A DNA stretch of 64,000 bases from Mucilaginibacter sp. L196 (GTDB taxonomy: Bacteria; Bacteroidota; Bacteroidia; Sphingobacteriales; Sphingobacteriaceae): positions 32,764-96,763 of the forward strand of contig NZ_LMUO01000012.1 of assembly GCF_009765905.1 (NCBI RefSeq), in the 5' to 3' direction. Numbering within the stretch: the first letter of the stretch is position 1; each line of letters starts with the position of its first letter. Below, piece after piece: positions 32,235 to 54,459 of this stretch. A program made the position numbers and the translations under genes. The notes under the pieces are model-generated. The model saw only the letters and a list, made by a program, of their open reading frames with translations, was not told the DNA's origin and made no database searches.

Positions 32235-33326
32235 TTATTGATAAACCTTAACGATGAACACATAGTTGTTCAACTTTTTAACTTGCTGAACCCTGGTTAA
32301 TCCCGCTAAAGTATTTTTAGTATTCAGGTTGATCTTTCTAGTTAATGAATCGGCGGGGATGTTGTGGATCGCACTCAGCAAATAGCTTGATTTTACCGCG
32401 AAGTGCACGCCTTCCAGCTGAGTTTGTTTTCCCTGTATAATACCTACAACGTTTCCTCTGCTATCCATTAGCGGGCTACCACTGTTACCGGGATTGATCG
32501 CGATAGAGATCTGGTAATCTAAACTGTCGCCATTTAAACCAACAGCCGATGTTACCCTACCTTCATCAAAATGTGGCGCATCCTGCGGATAGCCATAGGT
32601 GTAAACGCTTTCAGCCAAATCGCTCTCAGCTTTTTTAATGGTATAAGGGATAGCACCCAAATTTCTGAACGAAGTATCAACAATTTTTAAGATAGCAATA
32701 TCATTTTGAGGCTCGGTGTATAAAACTTTCGCTTTAAATGATTTCCCGGCGGCATTTTGCACATAGACAGAATCCGCGCCATTAATTACGTGGTAATTGG
32801 TAGCTATTAATCCGTTTGAGGTAATGGCAAAACCGGTACCGCTAAACCTTTCGGCATTGGCAGACCTATTGGCCCTGCCATTTTGTGAAAGCTTTTGGTT
32901 TATTTTATCAGTTTTATTCTTAAGGTTTCCTACTTCGCGGCGTAACTGTATGTATTGCGAATCCTGGTTAGTCATTTTACCGGTTAAGAACATTACACTC
33001 AAAATAGCAAATATAGCAACCGATGCCGCTACTGATATTTTTGAATGGTGATTACGCCACAACTGTACCACCCATGATGGATGAACCATCAGCTCATCGG
33101 CCAGGGTATGCACATCAATTTCGTCATGAATAGCATTCAGGCGGTTTTCCAATGCCAGGCGGTCGCTGTACTGCTTTAACAGTTTGGTGAAATCCTGGTG
33201 TTCGTTAACCTTGGTATCAATAGCAGTATTTTCCTTACGGAGCAATTCAAACTGCTTTAGCTCTTCCGGGCTCATTTCGCCGTTCAGATACCGTTCAATT
33301 TCTTCCTGTAATTTATACTCGTTCAT
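32235..33326 (-). CDS. Anti-sigma-like/trypsin-like serine protease fusion, membrane anchored
   Basis: 363 residues from ATG 33326, 11 bases after the sigma gene; the longer in-frame start would overlap that gene. The N-terminal 1-75 is helical and begins EIERYLNGEMSPEELKQFEL, an anti-sigma-like zinc-finger-less helix bundle. One membrane span follows (about 97-115, ISVAASVAIFAILSVMFLT). A short coiled stretch leads to an HtrA/trypsin-type domain with His179 (NYHV), Asp209 (QNDIAIL) and Ser282 (NPGNSGSP). No PDZ domain. Seen: the fusion and operon. Inferred: the cytoplasmic part holds the sigma factor and the periplasmic protease senses or executes release. Confidence 0.82.
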   Translation of the reverse strand: MNEYKLQEEIERYLNGEMSPEELKQFELLRKENTAIDTKVNEHQDFTKLLKQYSDRLALENRLNAIHDEIDVHTLADELMVHPSWVVQLWRNHHSKISVAASVAIFAILSVMFLTGKMTNQDSQYIQLRREVGNLKNKTDKINQKLSQNGRANRSANAERFSGTGFAITSNGLIATNYHVINGADSVYVQNAAGKSFKAKVLYTEPQNDIAILKIVDTSFRNLGAIPYTIKKAESDLAESVYTYGYPQDAPHFDEGRVTSAVGLNGDSLDYQISIAINPGNSGSPLMDSRGNVVGIIQGKQTQLEGVHFAVKSSYLLSAIHNIPADSLTRKINLNTKNTLAGLTRVQQVKKLNNYVFIVKVYQ

Positions 33327-33337
33327 TTTCGCCTCTC

Positions 33338-33907
33338 TTATTTCTGCTGAAAAAACAACTTCTTCAACCTTTGCAAACATTTATATTTTTGCGTTTTCGC
33401 ATTATCAGCATTGGTATAACCAAACCTTTCGCATATATCCTGCATGCTTAGGTTATGGATATAAAAATCCTCCATTATGGTTTTACAGGGTTCGCCTAAT
33501 AATTGGAGCGCACTCTCCATTTTACTAAACTGTATATCCATGTCGTTCTGTTTTTCAACTTCATCTTCAACATGCATATGCTCCTGAAAATCCCTTATAT
33601 CCCCTCCAAACCTGCTCATGTGGCTCAGCCTTTTAAGCCAAAGCCGTCGGCAGATTGAATAAATAAAGGTTTTAAGCTTACTGCTCAGCTCAAAATCCCC
33701 AGCCTTAATTTTGTTATATAATATAATAACGGCCTCCTGGTAAATATCCTTGGCATCATCAGCGGTGCCGTTATTATTTATTATTAGCTGTAAAATCATC
33801 GGAAAGTAAGCCACATACATGCGCTTTAAAACACTTTCCGAGTTATTAAGTATGCCTAATATAACCTCACTATCCGTTGGTATTGAATCTTTTAATTCTT
33901 TATTCAC
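33338..33907 (-). CDS. ECF-like RNA polymerase sigma factor
   Basis: 189 residues from a GTG (no ATG available). Region 2 is seen as ADDAKDIYQEAVIILYNKIK with LKTFIYSICRRLWLKRL, and region 4 as LSMQDICERFGYTNADNAKT followed by QKYKCLQRLKKLF. It directs RNA polymerase to specific promoters. Its upstream bipartite element matches those of the three divergent lipoprotein genes, so autoregulation is likely. The next gene downstream is the anti-sigma/protease fusion. The related sigma at 49801-50343 shares the FGY...KYKCL ending. Confidence 0.9.
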   Translation of the reverse strand: MNKELKDSIPTDSEVILGILNNSESVLKRMYVAYFPMILQLIINNNGTADDAKDIYQEAVIILYNKIKAGDFELSSKLKTFIYSICRRLWLKRLSHMSRFGGDIRDFQEHMHVEDEVEKQNDMDIQFSKMESALQLLGEPCKTIMEDFYIHNLSMQDICERFGYTNADNAKTQKYKCLQRLKKLFFQQK

Positions 33908-33919
33908 CTGATATTACTA

Positions 33920-33948
33920 CTTAATACAATTTATATGAAATGGTAACC
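33920..33948 (-). promoter_or_regulatory. Candidate sigma-dependent promoter GGTTACC-N15-TATTAAG (sigma gene)
   Basis: On the minus strand GGTTACC (33948-33942), 15 bases, TATTAAG (33926-33920). Ends 12 bases before the GTG. Same boxes and exactly the same spacing as at 33983, 34319 and 34665. Confidence 0.65.
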
Positions 33949-33982
33949 CTGTTTTTCAAAAAAAACTAATTTATTAAAATAA

Positions 33983-34011
33983 GGTTACCTTTTTGAAAAA
34001 CGGGCATTAAT
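33983..34011 (+). promoter_or_regulatory. Candidate sigma-dependent promoter GGTTACC-N15-CATTAAT (lipoprotein 1)
   Basis: GGTTACC 33983-33989, 15 bases, CATTAAT 34005-34011; 27 bases before the ATG at 34039. It is back to back with the sigma-gene element. Confidence 0.65.
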
Positions 34012-34038
34012 GCAAAGTAACACTTAAAAATAAACATC

Positions 34039-34236
34039 ATGAAAAACATTATCAAAACAACATTAGTAGCTGCAGCTGTATTAACATTTGCTGCTTGCGG
34101 TTCAAAAAAAGCAACTTCAGGTGTTGATTCAACTACTGTAAAAGTTGATTCAACTTCAAAAACAACTGTTGACAGCACTAAAAAAGACACTGTAAAAGTT
34201 GATACCACTAAAAAGGACACAACTAAAAAAATGTAA
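34039..34236 (+). CDS. Small Thr/Ser/Asp/Lys-rich lipoprotein 1
   Basis: 65 residues. Lipoprotein signal ending in the lipobox FAAC, Cys20. The mature part is low complexity, built from DST(T/K) and KKDT units (VDSTSKTTVDSTKKDTVKVD). No known fold or enzyme motif. First of three tandem paralogues; each has its own copy of the GGTTACY-N15 element. Opposite-strand frames here are open only because of the repetitive codons. Function unknown; an envelope stress role is inferred from context. Confidence 0.8.
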   Translation: MKNIIKTTLVAAAVLTFAACGSKKATSGVDSTTVKVDSTSKTTVDSTKKDTVKVDTTKKDTTKKM

Positions 34237-34242
34237 TTATTT

Positions 34243-34278
34243 AATCGGGCAGAGTAATGCAAATCATTCTGCCCGATT
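34243..34278 (+). terminator. Hairpin after lipoprotein 1
   Basis: An 11-bp perfect stem AATCGGGCAGA / TCTGCCCGATT, 7 bases past the stop, loop of 14. It lacks a strong T-run but probably ends the short transcript. Confidence 0.6.
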
Positions 34279-34318
34279 ACTCATTTAGCTGTATTTCAGA
34301 TATTTATTCAGGCAGATG

Positions 34319-34347
34319 GGTTACTTTTCATACATTATTGTATTAAG
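34319..34347 (+). promoter_or_regulatory. Candidate sigma-dependent promoter GGTTACT-N15-TATTAAG (lipoprotein 2)
   Basis: GGTTACT 34319-34325, 15 bases, TATTAAG 34341-34347; 25 bases before the ATG. It shares the extended tail ATTGTATTAAG with the sigma-gene element. Confidence 0.65.
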
Positions 34348-34372
34348 ATTATAAATCTATAAAAACATAACC

Positions 34373-34597
34373 ATGAAAAACTCATTTAAAATCGCGGCAT
34401 TAGCCCTGGTAGTTTCAATTTCGGTAGCTGCTTGCGGTGGCCACAAAAGCGGTTCAGCTGGCGACAGCACTAAGGTAGACTCAACAAAAATCACGAAGGA
34501 TACCCTTAAAAACGATACTACTATTAAAAACGATAGTACCCATAAAGACACTACCATTAAAACTGTTACTAAAACAACAGAAACCAAAAAGAAATAA
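34373..34597 (+). CDS. Small Thr/Ser/Asp/Lys-rich lipoprotein 2
   Basis: 74 residues. Signal peptide MKNSFKIAALALVVSISVAA, lipidated Cys21. The mature part repeats DST and NDT units (GDSTKVDSTKITKDTLKNDT). Paralogue of its two neighbours: the MKNSxK start is the same as in lipoprotein 3, and the mature-region composition matches both. Not recognised as a named family. It has its own promoter element, and a hairpin follows at about 34631. Confidence 0.8.
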   Translation: MKNSFKIAALALVVSISVAACGGHKSGSAGDSTKVDSTKITKDTLKNDTTIKNDSTHKDTTIKTVTKTTETKKK

Positions 34598-34630
34598 TAA
34601 CACCCTGATTATTAGTTTTTTTATAATTTA

Positions 34631-34675
34631 AAAAGGTAATCCATGATTTTTTTTCAAAAACATGGGTTACCTTTT
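34631..34675 (+). terminator. Inverted repeat between lipoproteins 2 and 3
   Basis: AAAAGGTAATCCATG / CATGGGTTACCTTTT with a T-rich loop. The right arm contains the GGTTACC box of lipoprotein 3, so the same bases may be terminator for one gene and promoter for the next. Confidence 0.5.
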
Positions 34676-34693
34676 GTCATTTCAGGTATTAAT
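34665..34693 (+). promoter_or_regulatory. Candidate sigma-dependent promoter GGTTACC-N15-TATTAAT (lipoprotein 3)
   Basis: GGTTACC 34665-34671, 15 bases, TATTAAT 34687-34693; 34 bases before the ATG at 34728. Confidence 0.65.
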
Positions 34694-34727: not shown

Positions 34728-34955
34728 ATGAAAAATTCAATCAAAGTTAGCGTATTAGCTTTAGCTATCGCTTGTTCTTTCGCAGCTTGCAAAAGCAAAT
34801 CTTCTTCAGCTTCAGCTGATTCTACTAAAATGGCTGATTCAGCTAAAGCAGCAGATTCAACTAAAATGGCTGATTCATCTAAAATGAAAGCTGACACTGG
34901 TAAAATGAAAGCTGATTCAGCTAAAATGACTAAAGACACAACTGCTAAGAAATAA
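34728..34955 (+). CDS. Small Ala/Ser/Asp/Lys-rich lipoprotein 3
   Basis: 75 residues from ATG 34728. The open frame extends 22 codons upstream, but that part covers the promoter element and is not signal-like. Signal peptide with lipobox FAAC, Cys21. The mature part is a tandem of 5- to 7-residue units ADSTKMADSAKAADSTKMAD. Very repetitive codons, so replication-slippage length variation is likely. Third of the tandem set. A strong terminator follows. Confidence 0.8.
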   Translation: MKNSIKVSVLALAIACSFAACKSKSSSASADSTKMADSAKAADSTKMADSSKMKADTGKMKADSAKMTKDTTAKK

Positions 34956-38205: not shown

Positions 38206-39111
38206 TTAACTTTTTGGTTTTGTAAATGCTGGCACTAATATAGCAAGTACTTCACTCATTGTTAACGGTTCATCAAACGCCGCCGTTGCAGCAGCAACTG
38301 TTGTTGTACTACTTGTTGCACTAGGTAAATTAAGGATGTTAACGCCACCTTGTACACTTGTATTTTCTGGAGTAGCACCACCGTAGTTTGCATTTACTGC
38401 CGCAACACCGGTATCATTACTTGCAGCGCCTGAAGTATCAACACTTCCTGATGCAGCACTGGTAATCCATGGCAATACAGTTGCACCATATTTGGTCATA
38501 CGTAAATAACGGATGGCTGATGCGTGCCTTGCTTCTACAGCGTGTATATCAAGTGCTGCAGTTAAATAAGTTTGGTTACCCAATAAATTAGGGGCCTGGC
38601 CTTTGTATGCGCGTACGCCTGTATCTTCAAATGTTTCGGCAACAGCTAAAAATGTTTGATAGTTGGTAAAAACACCAGTGAATGGGCCAGCCTGTGAACC
38701 AGCACCACCGGTATAATCTAAATACACAAAATCAGACGCGGTAACCGGGGTACCACCTGCGGCATTAATTGCGCTTGTTAAAAACGTAACGTGTTTGTTT
38801 TCGTCAGACTGAATTTGAGAGATATAAGAGGTATCAGTTACTAATCCTGAAGCGGCCATCCCATCGTTGTAAAATGTCGCTTCTAATATTTCAAGTGTTA
38901 AAGCAAAGTTTAATACACTAATTACACTTGCTGATGCTGATTGACCATAGGCTTTTTTGAATAAATTGCCTAAAGCAAATGGAACCGCAGCAATAGCTAC
39001 CTTAGAACCAAAGCTCGTAATATTTTTTATCGCGTCGCGACGAGGGCTGATCCGGTCATTAAATTCCGGGTCAATTTTCTCTATTTCTTCTACTATACTA
39101 AATAAATTCAT
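38206..39111 (-). CDS. Ferritin-like domain protein, exported
   Basis: 301 residues. SPRRDAIKNITSFGSKVAIA near the N-terminus is a weak Tat-like signal. A four-helix ferritin_2-type domain follows, with carboxylate/His motifs ALTLEILEATFYNDG, DENKHVTFL, ETFEDTGVRAYKG and DIHAVEARHASAIR. The last about 90 residues are Ser/Thr/Ala-rich low complexity. Function in the family is unknown; a di-metal site is plausible from the Glu/His spacing. It follows a paralogue by 21 bases. Confidence 0.82.
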   Translation of the reverse strand: MNLFSIVEEIEKIDPEFNDRISPRRDAIKNITSFGSKVAIAAVPFALGNLFKKAYGQSASASVISVLNFALTLEILEATFYNDGMAASGLVTDTSYISQIQSDENKHVTFLTSAINAAGGTPVTASDFVYLDYTGGAGSQAGPFTGVFTNYQTFLAVAETFEDTGVRAYKGQAPNLLGNQTYLTAALDIHAVEARHASAIRYLRMTKYGATVLPWITSAASGSVDTSGAASNDTGVAAVNANYGGATPENTSVQGGVNILNLPSATSSTTTVAAATAAFDEPLTMSEVLAILVPAFTKPKS

Positions 39112-54117: not shown

Positions 54118-54459
54118 AAGAATATTGATTAATGAATTAACAAATCAAAAGTCACCATTTACCAACCGGTCATCATAACCAAATCAAGGACATTCGTAAC
54201 CAAAATGAAAAAGATAAATCACATTTTGCATTGGCTATGGAATGAAATCACTTTACAGTATAATATCGGAATATTTTCCGATTACTTTGGAATCGCATTA
54301 TCAATAAAGTTTAGGTTTATAGTTTTTGAAAATATTTTCAGTGATCCCACATTGGACCCGAGCCTCTGAATTGACGGGAAAGTTGTTTCATAAACTGACG
54401 GTTGATAAACGGTATCAAATGGATTAATTGTTATTTTTGCCACAGATAAAAACTTAAAA
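54118..54459. other. Geneless spacer with a small hairpin
   Basis: 342 bases between divergent SDR and map. A 7-bp perfect hairpin ATCGGAA-TATT-TTCCGAT lies at 54265-54282, and a -7 box TATTTTTG at 54432-54439, 20 bases before the map ATG. The minus-strand frame here has no family similarity and is taken as a shadow. Confidence 0.5.

Follow-up and report, generated by a model that had tools for sequence, protein, structure and literature searches.

In Bacteroidota, few promoters of ECF sigma factors have been defined, and many such factors have no recognised anti-sigma partner. A 64,000-nt stretch of Mucilaginibacter sp. L196 (GCF_009765905.1, contig NZ_LMUO01000012.1, positions 32,764–96,763; hereafter the window) puts the question in compact form, for the same two-box element stands before an ECF sigma gene and before each of three divergent small lipoprotein genes. 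Are these elements promoters read by the adjacent sigma factor, and what might hold that sigma factor in check?

Four matching elements in the window

An earlier note on this DNA had written the element as GGTTACY-N15-YATTAAK, and interpreted it as a −35/−10 pair read by an autoregulated sigma factor encoded beside it, with adjacent targets. All four 29-mers match this pattern without mismatch. The putative sigma promoter lies on the minus strand at 33920–33948 (GGTTACCATTTCATATAAATTGTATTAAG; −35 GGTTAC, −10 GTATTAA), where the exact match is joined by conservation among orthologs, and its second box ends 13 nt before the GTG start codon. The putative lipoprotein promoters lie on the plus strand at 33983–34011 (GGTTACCTTTTTGAAAAACGGGCATTAAT, with the second-box variant GCATTAA), 34319–34347 (GGTTACTTTTCATACATTATTGTATTAAG, an exact match) and 34665–34693 (GGTTACCTTTTGTCATTTCAGGTATTAAT, also exact), and are separated from the ATG codons at 34039, 34373 and 34728 by 28, 26 and 35 nt, respectively. 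The elements at 33948 and 34319 share ATTGTATTAAG, as had been pointed out before.

A pattern scan of the 64 kb agreed with the earlier by-eye search in finding no exact fifth copy. Two copies with one mismatch occur, at 38718 (inside an ORF) and at 54128 (intergenic); the latter (54128–54156, minus strand; GGTGAC...CATTAAT) lies shortly before the ATG of a gene with a short-chain dehydrogenase-like start, and may be a chance match. With up to two mismatches the window holds 14 matches, compared with 4.6 ± 2.2 in shuffled sequence, a weak test of chance because the motif was chosen after seeing these four copies. Since the motif was read off the window, the independent test lies in other genomes.

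The sigma factor and its protease-fused partner

The sigma gene (33338–33907, minus strand) encodes 189 aa from its GTG start. The product matches Pfam Sigma70_r2 (7e-7, over the cut-off) and NCBIfam sigma70-ECF (58.4 bits, cut-off 42.9, residues 28–183). With sigma-70 regions 2 and 4 only, in about 190 aa, it is an ECF (group 4) sigma factor, with SigW and SigH as relatives in the PDB. It does not belong to NCBIfam Sig70_bacteroi1 (TIGR02985), scoring 45.5 bits against a curated cut-off of 126.4. Searching with aligned sigma orthologs yielded 80 named loci (934 kb) from Mucilaginibacter, Pedobacter, Daejeonella, Pararcticibacter and relatives, which we used for comparison.

Downstream of the sigma gene, beginning 11 nt after it, lies a gene of 363 codons (32235–33326, minus strand) that the earlier note had left unmentioned. 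It encodes a putative anti-sigma factor fused to an HtrA-type protease (Pfam Trypsin_2, 6.7e-26), both parts forming one ORF in the window and in full-length orthologs. The predicted layout comprises cytoplasmic helices (residues 1–93), a transmembrane segment (~97–115), a coiled linker (122–149), a trypsin-like domain (~158–320) and a conserved C-terminal tail. The catalytic residues H179, D209 and S282 are intact in all 80 sequences, which carry a single transmembrane segment. No PDZ domain was matched; in the AlphaFold model, the roughly 40 residues that follow the protease domain fold into a helix and a strand. Foldseek comparison of this model returned DegS, HtrA and MucD as the closest solved structures. 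Confidence in the N-terminal part is moderate (pLDDT ~68–81 for residues 1–60) and lower up to residue 120, and searches with family models matched the N-terminal ~95 residues to no known anti-sigma model.

From its gene position and protein topology, the fused protein is likely an anti-sigma factor. It could instead be an envelope protease that is merely co-expressed, with the sigma factor regulated by level alone. The lack of a recognised anti-sigma domain in the first 95 residues would suit that idea, and so would the report that class I anti-sigma domains lie near only 6% of Bacteroidetes ECFs (PMC7406223). We consider this explanation, which competes with the anti-sigma assignment only, improbable though the most serious of the alternatives: the protease gene follows the sigma gene in 79 of 80 loci (in the 80th the contig ends too early), the two genes vanish together, and the cytoplasmic helical part that adjoins the single transmembrane helix is conserved. 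Whether sigma activation works through the fused protease domain is, in our judgement, evenly balanced. Our literature search returned no description of an anti-sigma/protease fusion, although the ECF reclassification paper fell outside its scope and may contain one. It likewise returned nothing relevant on GGTTAC sigma motifs, on anti-sigma factors with trypsin or serine-protease domains, or on Mucilaginibacter sigma factors.

Conservation of the element at orthologous loci

Across the 80 loci, the pattern GGTTAC-N15–19-TATTAA gave 245 matches, compared with none for the reversed pattern. An element stands at most 60 nt upstream of the sigma gene in 79 of the 80 loci, so that the sigma gene's own promoter would carry the −35/−10 motif of its targets, an arrangement that marks autoregulation as far as sequence can tell. 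The exception, L124, has GGTTAC followed by GTATAAA before the sigma gene. The element also precedes 136 divergent small-lipoprotein genes spread over 74 loci. When divergent small-lipoprotein ORFs were picked irrespective of the motif, 133 of 179 carried it under strict criteria; of the remaining 46, about half have it with one additional spacer base or one mismatch.

Box spacing equals that of the window in 78 of 79 sigma promoters and in 126 of 136 lipoprotein promoters, the rest being one base longer. The spacing of 15 in the earlier motif thus holds in the window, while elsewhere both 15 and 16 occur, and the second box is refined to GTATTAA. The refined motif reads GGTTAC-N15/16-GTATTAA with a T-tract upstream, the first part usually being GGGTTACCTTTT before lipoprotein genes. 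The logos are ttTTTTTT...TGGGTTACaATTt...AA..GTATTAA for the sigma promoters (79 loci) and GGGTTACCTTTT..........gGTATTAA for the lipoprotein promoters (136 genes), both with the upstream T-tract and both with boxes that are fixed by the search pattern itself. Between the boxes the spacer varies in sequence and is nearly constant in length.

Co-occurrence of element and sigma factor

We then surveyed 121 whole genomes of the family with the pattern GGTTACNNTTN11-12GTATTAA. Sigma orthologs are present in 113 (~93% of those sampled). The motif occurs in all 113 of these and in one of the eight sigma-negative genomes (Fisher p ~1e-10), where the single copy lies inside an 833-codon frame. The sigma-negative genomes come from four genera and also lack the fused protease; their HtrA-like matches are confined to the protease domain, or there are none. 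Overall, the motif matched 260 times and its reversed pattern 14 times. Motif and sigma factor thus co-occur across Sphingobacteriaceae as the earlier note would predict, a result that is partly built in because most motif copies adjoin the sigma locus.

Could the element be the two-box operator of a DNA-binding regulator, which might also control the sigma gene, with transcription by the housekeeping sigma factor? A dimeric regulator, too, could account for conserved boxes a fixed distance apart ahead of start codons, and co-occurrence in 121 genomes cannot by itself separate the sigma factor from a linked regulator. We nevertheless judge this very unlikely. The two boxes are unlike and show no repeat relationship, inverted or direct; with 15–16 nt between them they fit an ECF promoter, whose −35 and −10 boxes typically stand that far apart. 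The conserved DNA-binding partner at the locus is the sigma factor itself. Finally, a housekeeping promoter equipped with a site for an activator is disfavoured, since TAnnTTTG, the −7 box of housekeeping promoters in Bacteroidetes, shows no enrichment around the elements: element plus leader contained 3 such boxes where 5.0 were expected, and the upstream region 7 where 11.8 were expected.

Copies distant from the sigma locus provide a smaller but stricter test of the promoter reading. In the sigma-bearing genomes, 18 of 19 such copies are intergenic and 16 of 19 lie 9–45 nt before a start codon, whereas all 14 control matches of the reversed pattern in the same genomes fall inside ORFs (p ~2e-8). 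Behind the distal copies are lipoproteins of the same K/D/S/T type, DUF4349 lipoproteins, DUF4294 proteins and small membrane proteins, and the first three families recur between genomes.

Several of these genes deserve mention. DUF4349-type genes (L145, L146, L148, L150, L161, L162, L167, L170 and L182; two assignments confirmed by Pfam, the others made by resemblance) have the motif with one additional spacer base 19–76 nt upstream; DUF4349 is absent from the Mucilaginibacter sp. L196 genome. DUF4294 genes in two genera (L142, L144) have the element ~40 nt before the start. A small single-TM family (MDERK/MEERK...) in two genomes of one genus (L022:1501–1917 and L172) has it 3 and 13 nt before the ATG, and is a candidate for a second near-leaderless target.

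The genome of strain L196 was scanned with a loose pattern (17 bases between GGTTAC and ATTAA), which added copies beyond those the earlier note had described. At least one further good copy lies outside the window, at C2:512218, before a fourth lipoprotein paralog and with a 120-nt leader. A probable sixth copy, at C10:26834, precedes a 126-aa membrane protein that resembles the motif-bearing gene L172. Most other loose matches fall within ORFs or are followed by no gene, and were taken as chance.

The elements might also be promoters of a paralogous ECF sigma factor, the adjacent sigma gene being merely one of its targets. Three other ECF genes of the same genome have detectable similarity to the sigma gene; at only ~23–25% identity, however, they are distant, and the motif vanishes without the adjacent sigma gene in four genera and persists before it in distant families, leaving this explanation marginally weaker than an operator. 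Recent local duplication of the lipoprotein genes together with their upstream DNA would be in keeping with paralogs whose upstream and start regions are similar, but has next to nothing left to recommend it, given that the sigma gene, no paralog of theirs, carries the element too, that the boxes are kept across genera while the spacers differ, and that unrelated distal genes bear them.

We therefore return to the reading in which the four elements are promoters served by the sigma factor encoded at 33338–33907, with autoregulation and a defined target set; on comparative sequence evidence this is very probably correct. The fixed geometry, the proximity to start codons and the conservation at both sigma and lipoprotein genes support it, as do the loss of the motif from sigma-less genomes and its recurrence before unrelated genes for exported proteins. 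The promoter elements, their pairing with the sigma factor, the autoregulatory layout and the target set are all well supported by these comparisons, so that the core of the earlier interpretation, an autoregulated sigma factor with adjacent targets, stands. Sigma homologs of ~45–55% identity are also found in several other families of Bacteroidia (for example L244, L245, L247, L252, L254, L256 and L260), accompanied by the fused protease and the motif, and often also by a small lipoprotein; the module is therefore old.

Start codon and leader of the sigma gene

In 71 of 79 orthologs (L054–L133), the sigma GTG begins only 2–3 nt after TATTAA; the window gene, with its 13-nt gap (33907–33921), is among the few exceptions. 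The GTG is retained in all 71 aligned cases and the codons that follow vary like coding sequence, so that it is probably the true start. A transcription start at the usual 6–8 nt would miss a GTG this close to the box. The sigma mRNA of most orthologs must then either lack a leader and have a short discriminator, or begin elsewhere or further upstream, and the start site 5–9 nt after the second box that the earlier note had expected sits poorly with the sigma gene of most orthologs. Leaderless mRNAs make up 5.5% of the total in F. psychrophilum (PMC9723704).

A start further upstream is conceivable because about 25 loci have a second element on the same strand, mostly 96–159 nt upstream of the sigma gene (L058, L064, L069–L072, L094, L099, L106–L107, L109–L111, L113–L115, L117, L120–L123, L125–L126 and L131). 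The Pedobacter copies mostly have one additional spacer base. These loci may possess two tandem, self-dependent sigma promoters.

The small lipoproteins

The three lipoproteins of the window (65 aa, 34039–34236; 74 aa, 34373–34597; 75 aa, 34728–34955; all plus strand) each have a lipobox cysteine and a tail rich in K, T, D and S. For the third, a longer ORF starting at 34662 would overlap the promoter. The 134 distinct lipoproteins found beside the sigma gene at orthologous loci are 59–88 aa long and, after the lipobox cysteine, consist of 21% T, 18% K, 13% D, 12% S and 12% A, with practically no aromatic residues. Surface export signals of lipoproteins typically contain an acidic stretch after the cysteine. 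Since the sigma-adjacent lipoproteins have none, our guess is that they face the periplasm and are disordered.

From the motif position, a leader of ~27 nt is predicted for the lipoprotein mRNAs, which fits an ECF promoter and resembles the median leaders of 24 nt in F. psychrophilum and 32 nt in B. thetaiotaomicron (PMC9723704).

The short lipoproteins of the PG1828 family (NCBIfam NF050142) are similar in build. Against the curated cut-off of 50, the first two window lipoproteins score 31.6 and 26.5 with this model (PG1828_fam_lipo), and the third has no family match. Pedobacter-group lipoproteins beside the sigma gene do reach the cut-off, with matches in a neighbouring frame (G051). This short model also picks up many unrelated signal peptides, and we rejected an assignment of the system to P. 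gingivalis SigH/PG1827-PG1828 because the PG1828 model is too unspecific for such a link.

A possible envelope-stress circuit

We infer a role in envelope stress. In the resting cell, the sigma factor would be sequestered at the inner membrane by the protein that the downstream gene encodes, with its cytoplasmic helical domain, single transmembrane helix and periplasmic HtrA-type protease domain. An envelope signal would alter this holder, most likely via its own protease domain, and free the sigma factor. The freed sigma factor would then transcribe its own operon, giving positive feedback with inhibitor made along with it. Its other targets would be the three small lipoprotein genes that diverge from the sigma gene and, at unlinked sites, a few genes whose products are exported or sit in the membrane. 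Tentatively, and with more doubt than belief, one may go further and picture a widespread Bacteroidota envelope-stress circuit, in which an anti-sigma factor with its own periplasmic HtrA protease senses damage, cuts itself or its neighbours in an oligomer and thereby frees the sigma factor, whose mRNA is leaderless in most orthologs and begins at the GTG right behind the −10 box.

The module looks like a known general kind, namely an ECF sigma factor, a membrane anti-sigma factor and envelope targets, with an apparently undescribed promoter code and fusion. E. coli sigma-E/RseA/DegS and P. aeruginosa AlgU-MucA-AlgW combine an ECF sigma factor with a membrane-bound inhibitor, as the module of the window apparently does. 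The sigma-E system shares, in addition, a periplasmic protease of DegS-like HtrA fold, an autoregulated sigma promoter and envelope targets, and the window protein has the trypsin-like domain, intact triad, one-TM anchor and fold match to DegS expected of the DegS/RseA type. In the E. coli system, DegS cleaves RseA, the anti-sigma factor. There, inhibitor and protease are separate polypeptides and the protease has a C-terminal, peptide-sensing PDZ domain, whereas here the putative inhibitor and the protease form one chain in which no PDZ domain was matched; by analogy, the roles of RseA and DegS may be united on that chain. The promoters differ too (GGAACTT/TCAAA for the sigma-E type, GGTTAC-N15/16-GTATTAA here), and sigma-E targets outer-membrane assembly genes rather than small K/D/S/T-rich lipoproteins.

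Closer in taxonomy, the Bacteroides pairs EcfO-Reo and Das-Dma each consist of a Bacteroidota ECF sigma factor and a single-TM anti-sigma factor; they have lipoprotein (NigD) genes among their targets and are supposed to sense envelope stress (PMC13114119, PMC13088901). In Reo and Dma, a long disordered region extends to the outer membrane in place of the periplasmic HtrA-type protease domain, and the targets here are not NigD. We found no published promoter motif of EcfO-Reo or Das-Dma for comparison. Porphyromonas gingivalis SigP (PGN_0274), a Bacteroidota ECF sigma factor that works with PorX of PorXY and targets T9SS genes, does have a proposed motif, C(T)AAA(G/C/T)A(T)A(C)T(A/G)A (PMC4800418, PMC8265659). 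Its dissimilarity to GGTTAC-N15/16-GTATTAA led us to reject an assignment to SigP. For Flavobacterium psychrophilum, the computed ECF-type motif SM6 also includes a sigma/anti-sigma operon; it has a CGT box at −10 and T9SS/Band-7 targets, and GGTTAC does not appear in the text of the article, to which this comparison is confined (PMC9723704).

What the locus supplies is thus a sigma factor together with its promoter code, a short list of targets and a candidate anti-sigma factor of apparently undescribed architecture, in a module that 113 of the 121 sampled family genomes share and that extends to further families. The GGTTAC-N15/16-GTATTAA promoter might also serve as an orthogonal promoter in genetic work on Mucilaginibacter and Pedobacter.

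Inverted repeats near the promoters

Sigma-70 and terminator scans of the locus gave chance level only. An inverted repeat (CCTGTTTTTCAAAAA/TTTTTGAAAAACGGG, 33948–33962 and 33990–34004; 93% complementary) lies between the divergent sigma and lipoprotein promoters. A palindromic operator, for which the repeats at ~33948–34004 and 34631–34675 were considered, was rejected, the ortholog promoter logos containing no such arm. The second repeat (AAAAGGTAATCCATGATTTT/AAAAACATGGGTTACCTTTT, 34631–34675; 90% complementary), between lipoprotein genes 2 and 3, is a strong hairpin and probably terminates lipoprotein gene 2. The −35 box of the third lipoprotein promoter falls within the 3′ arm of this hairpin, and terminator and next promoter appear to overlap there.
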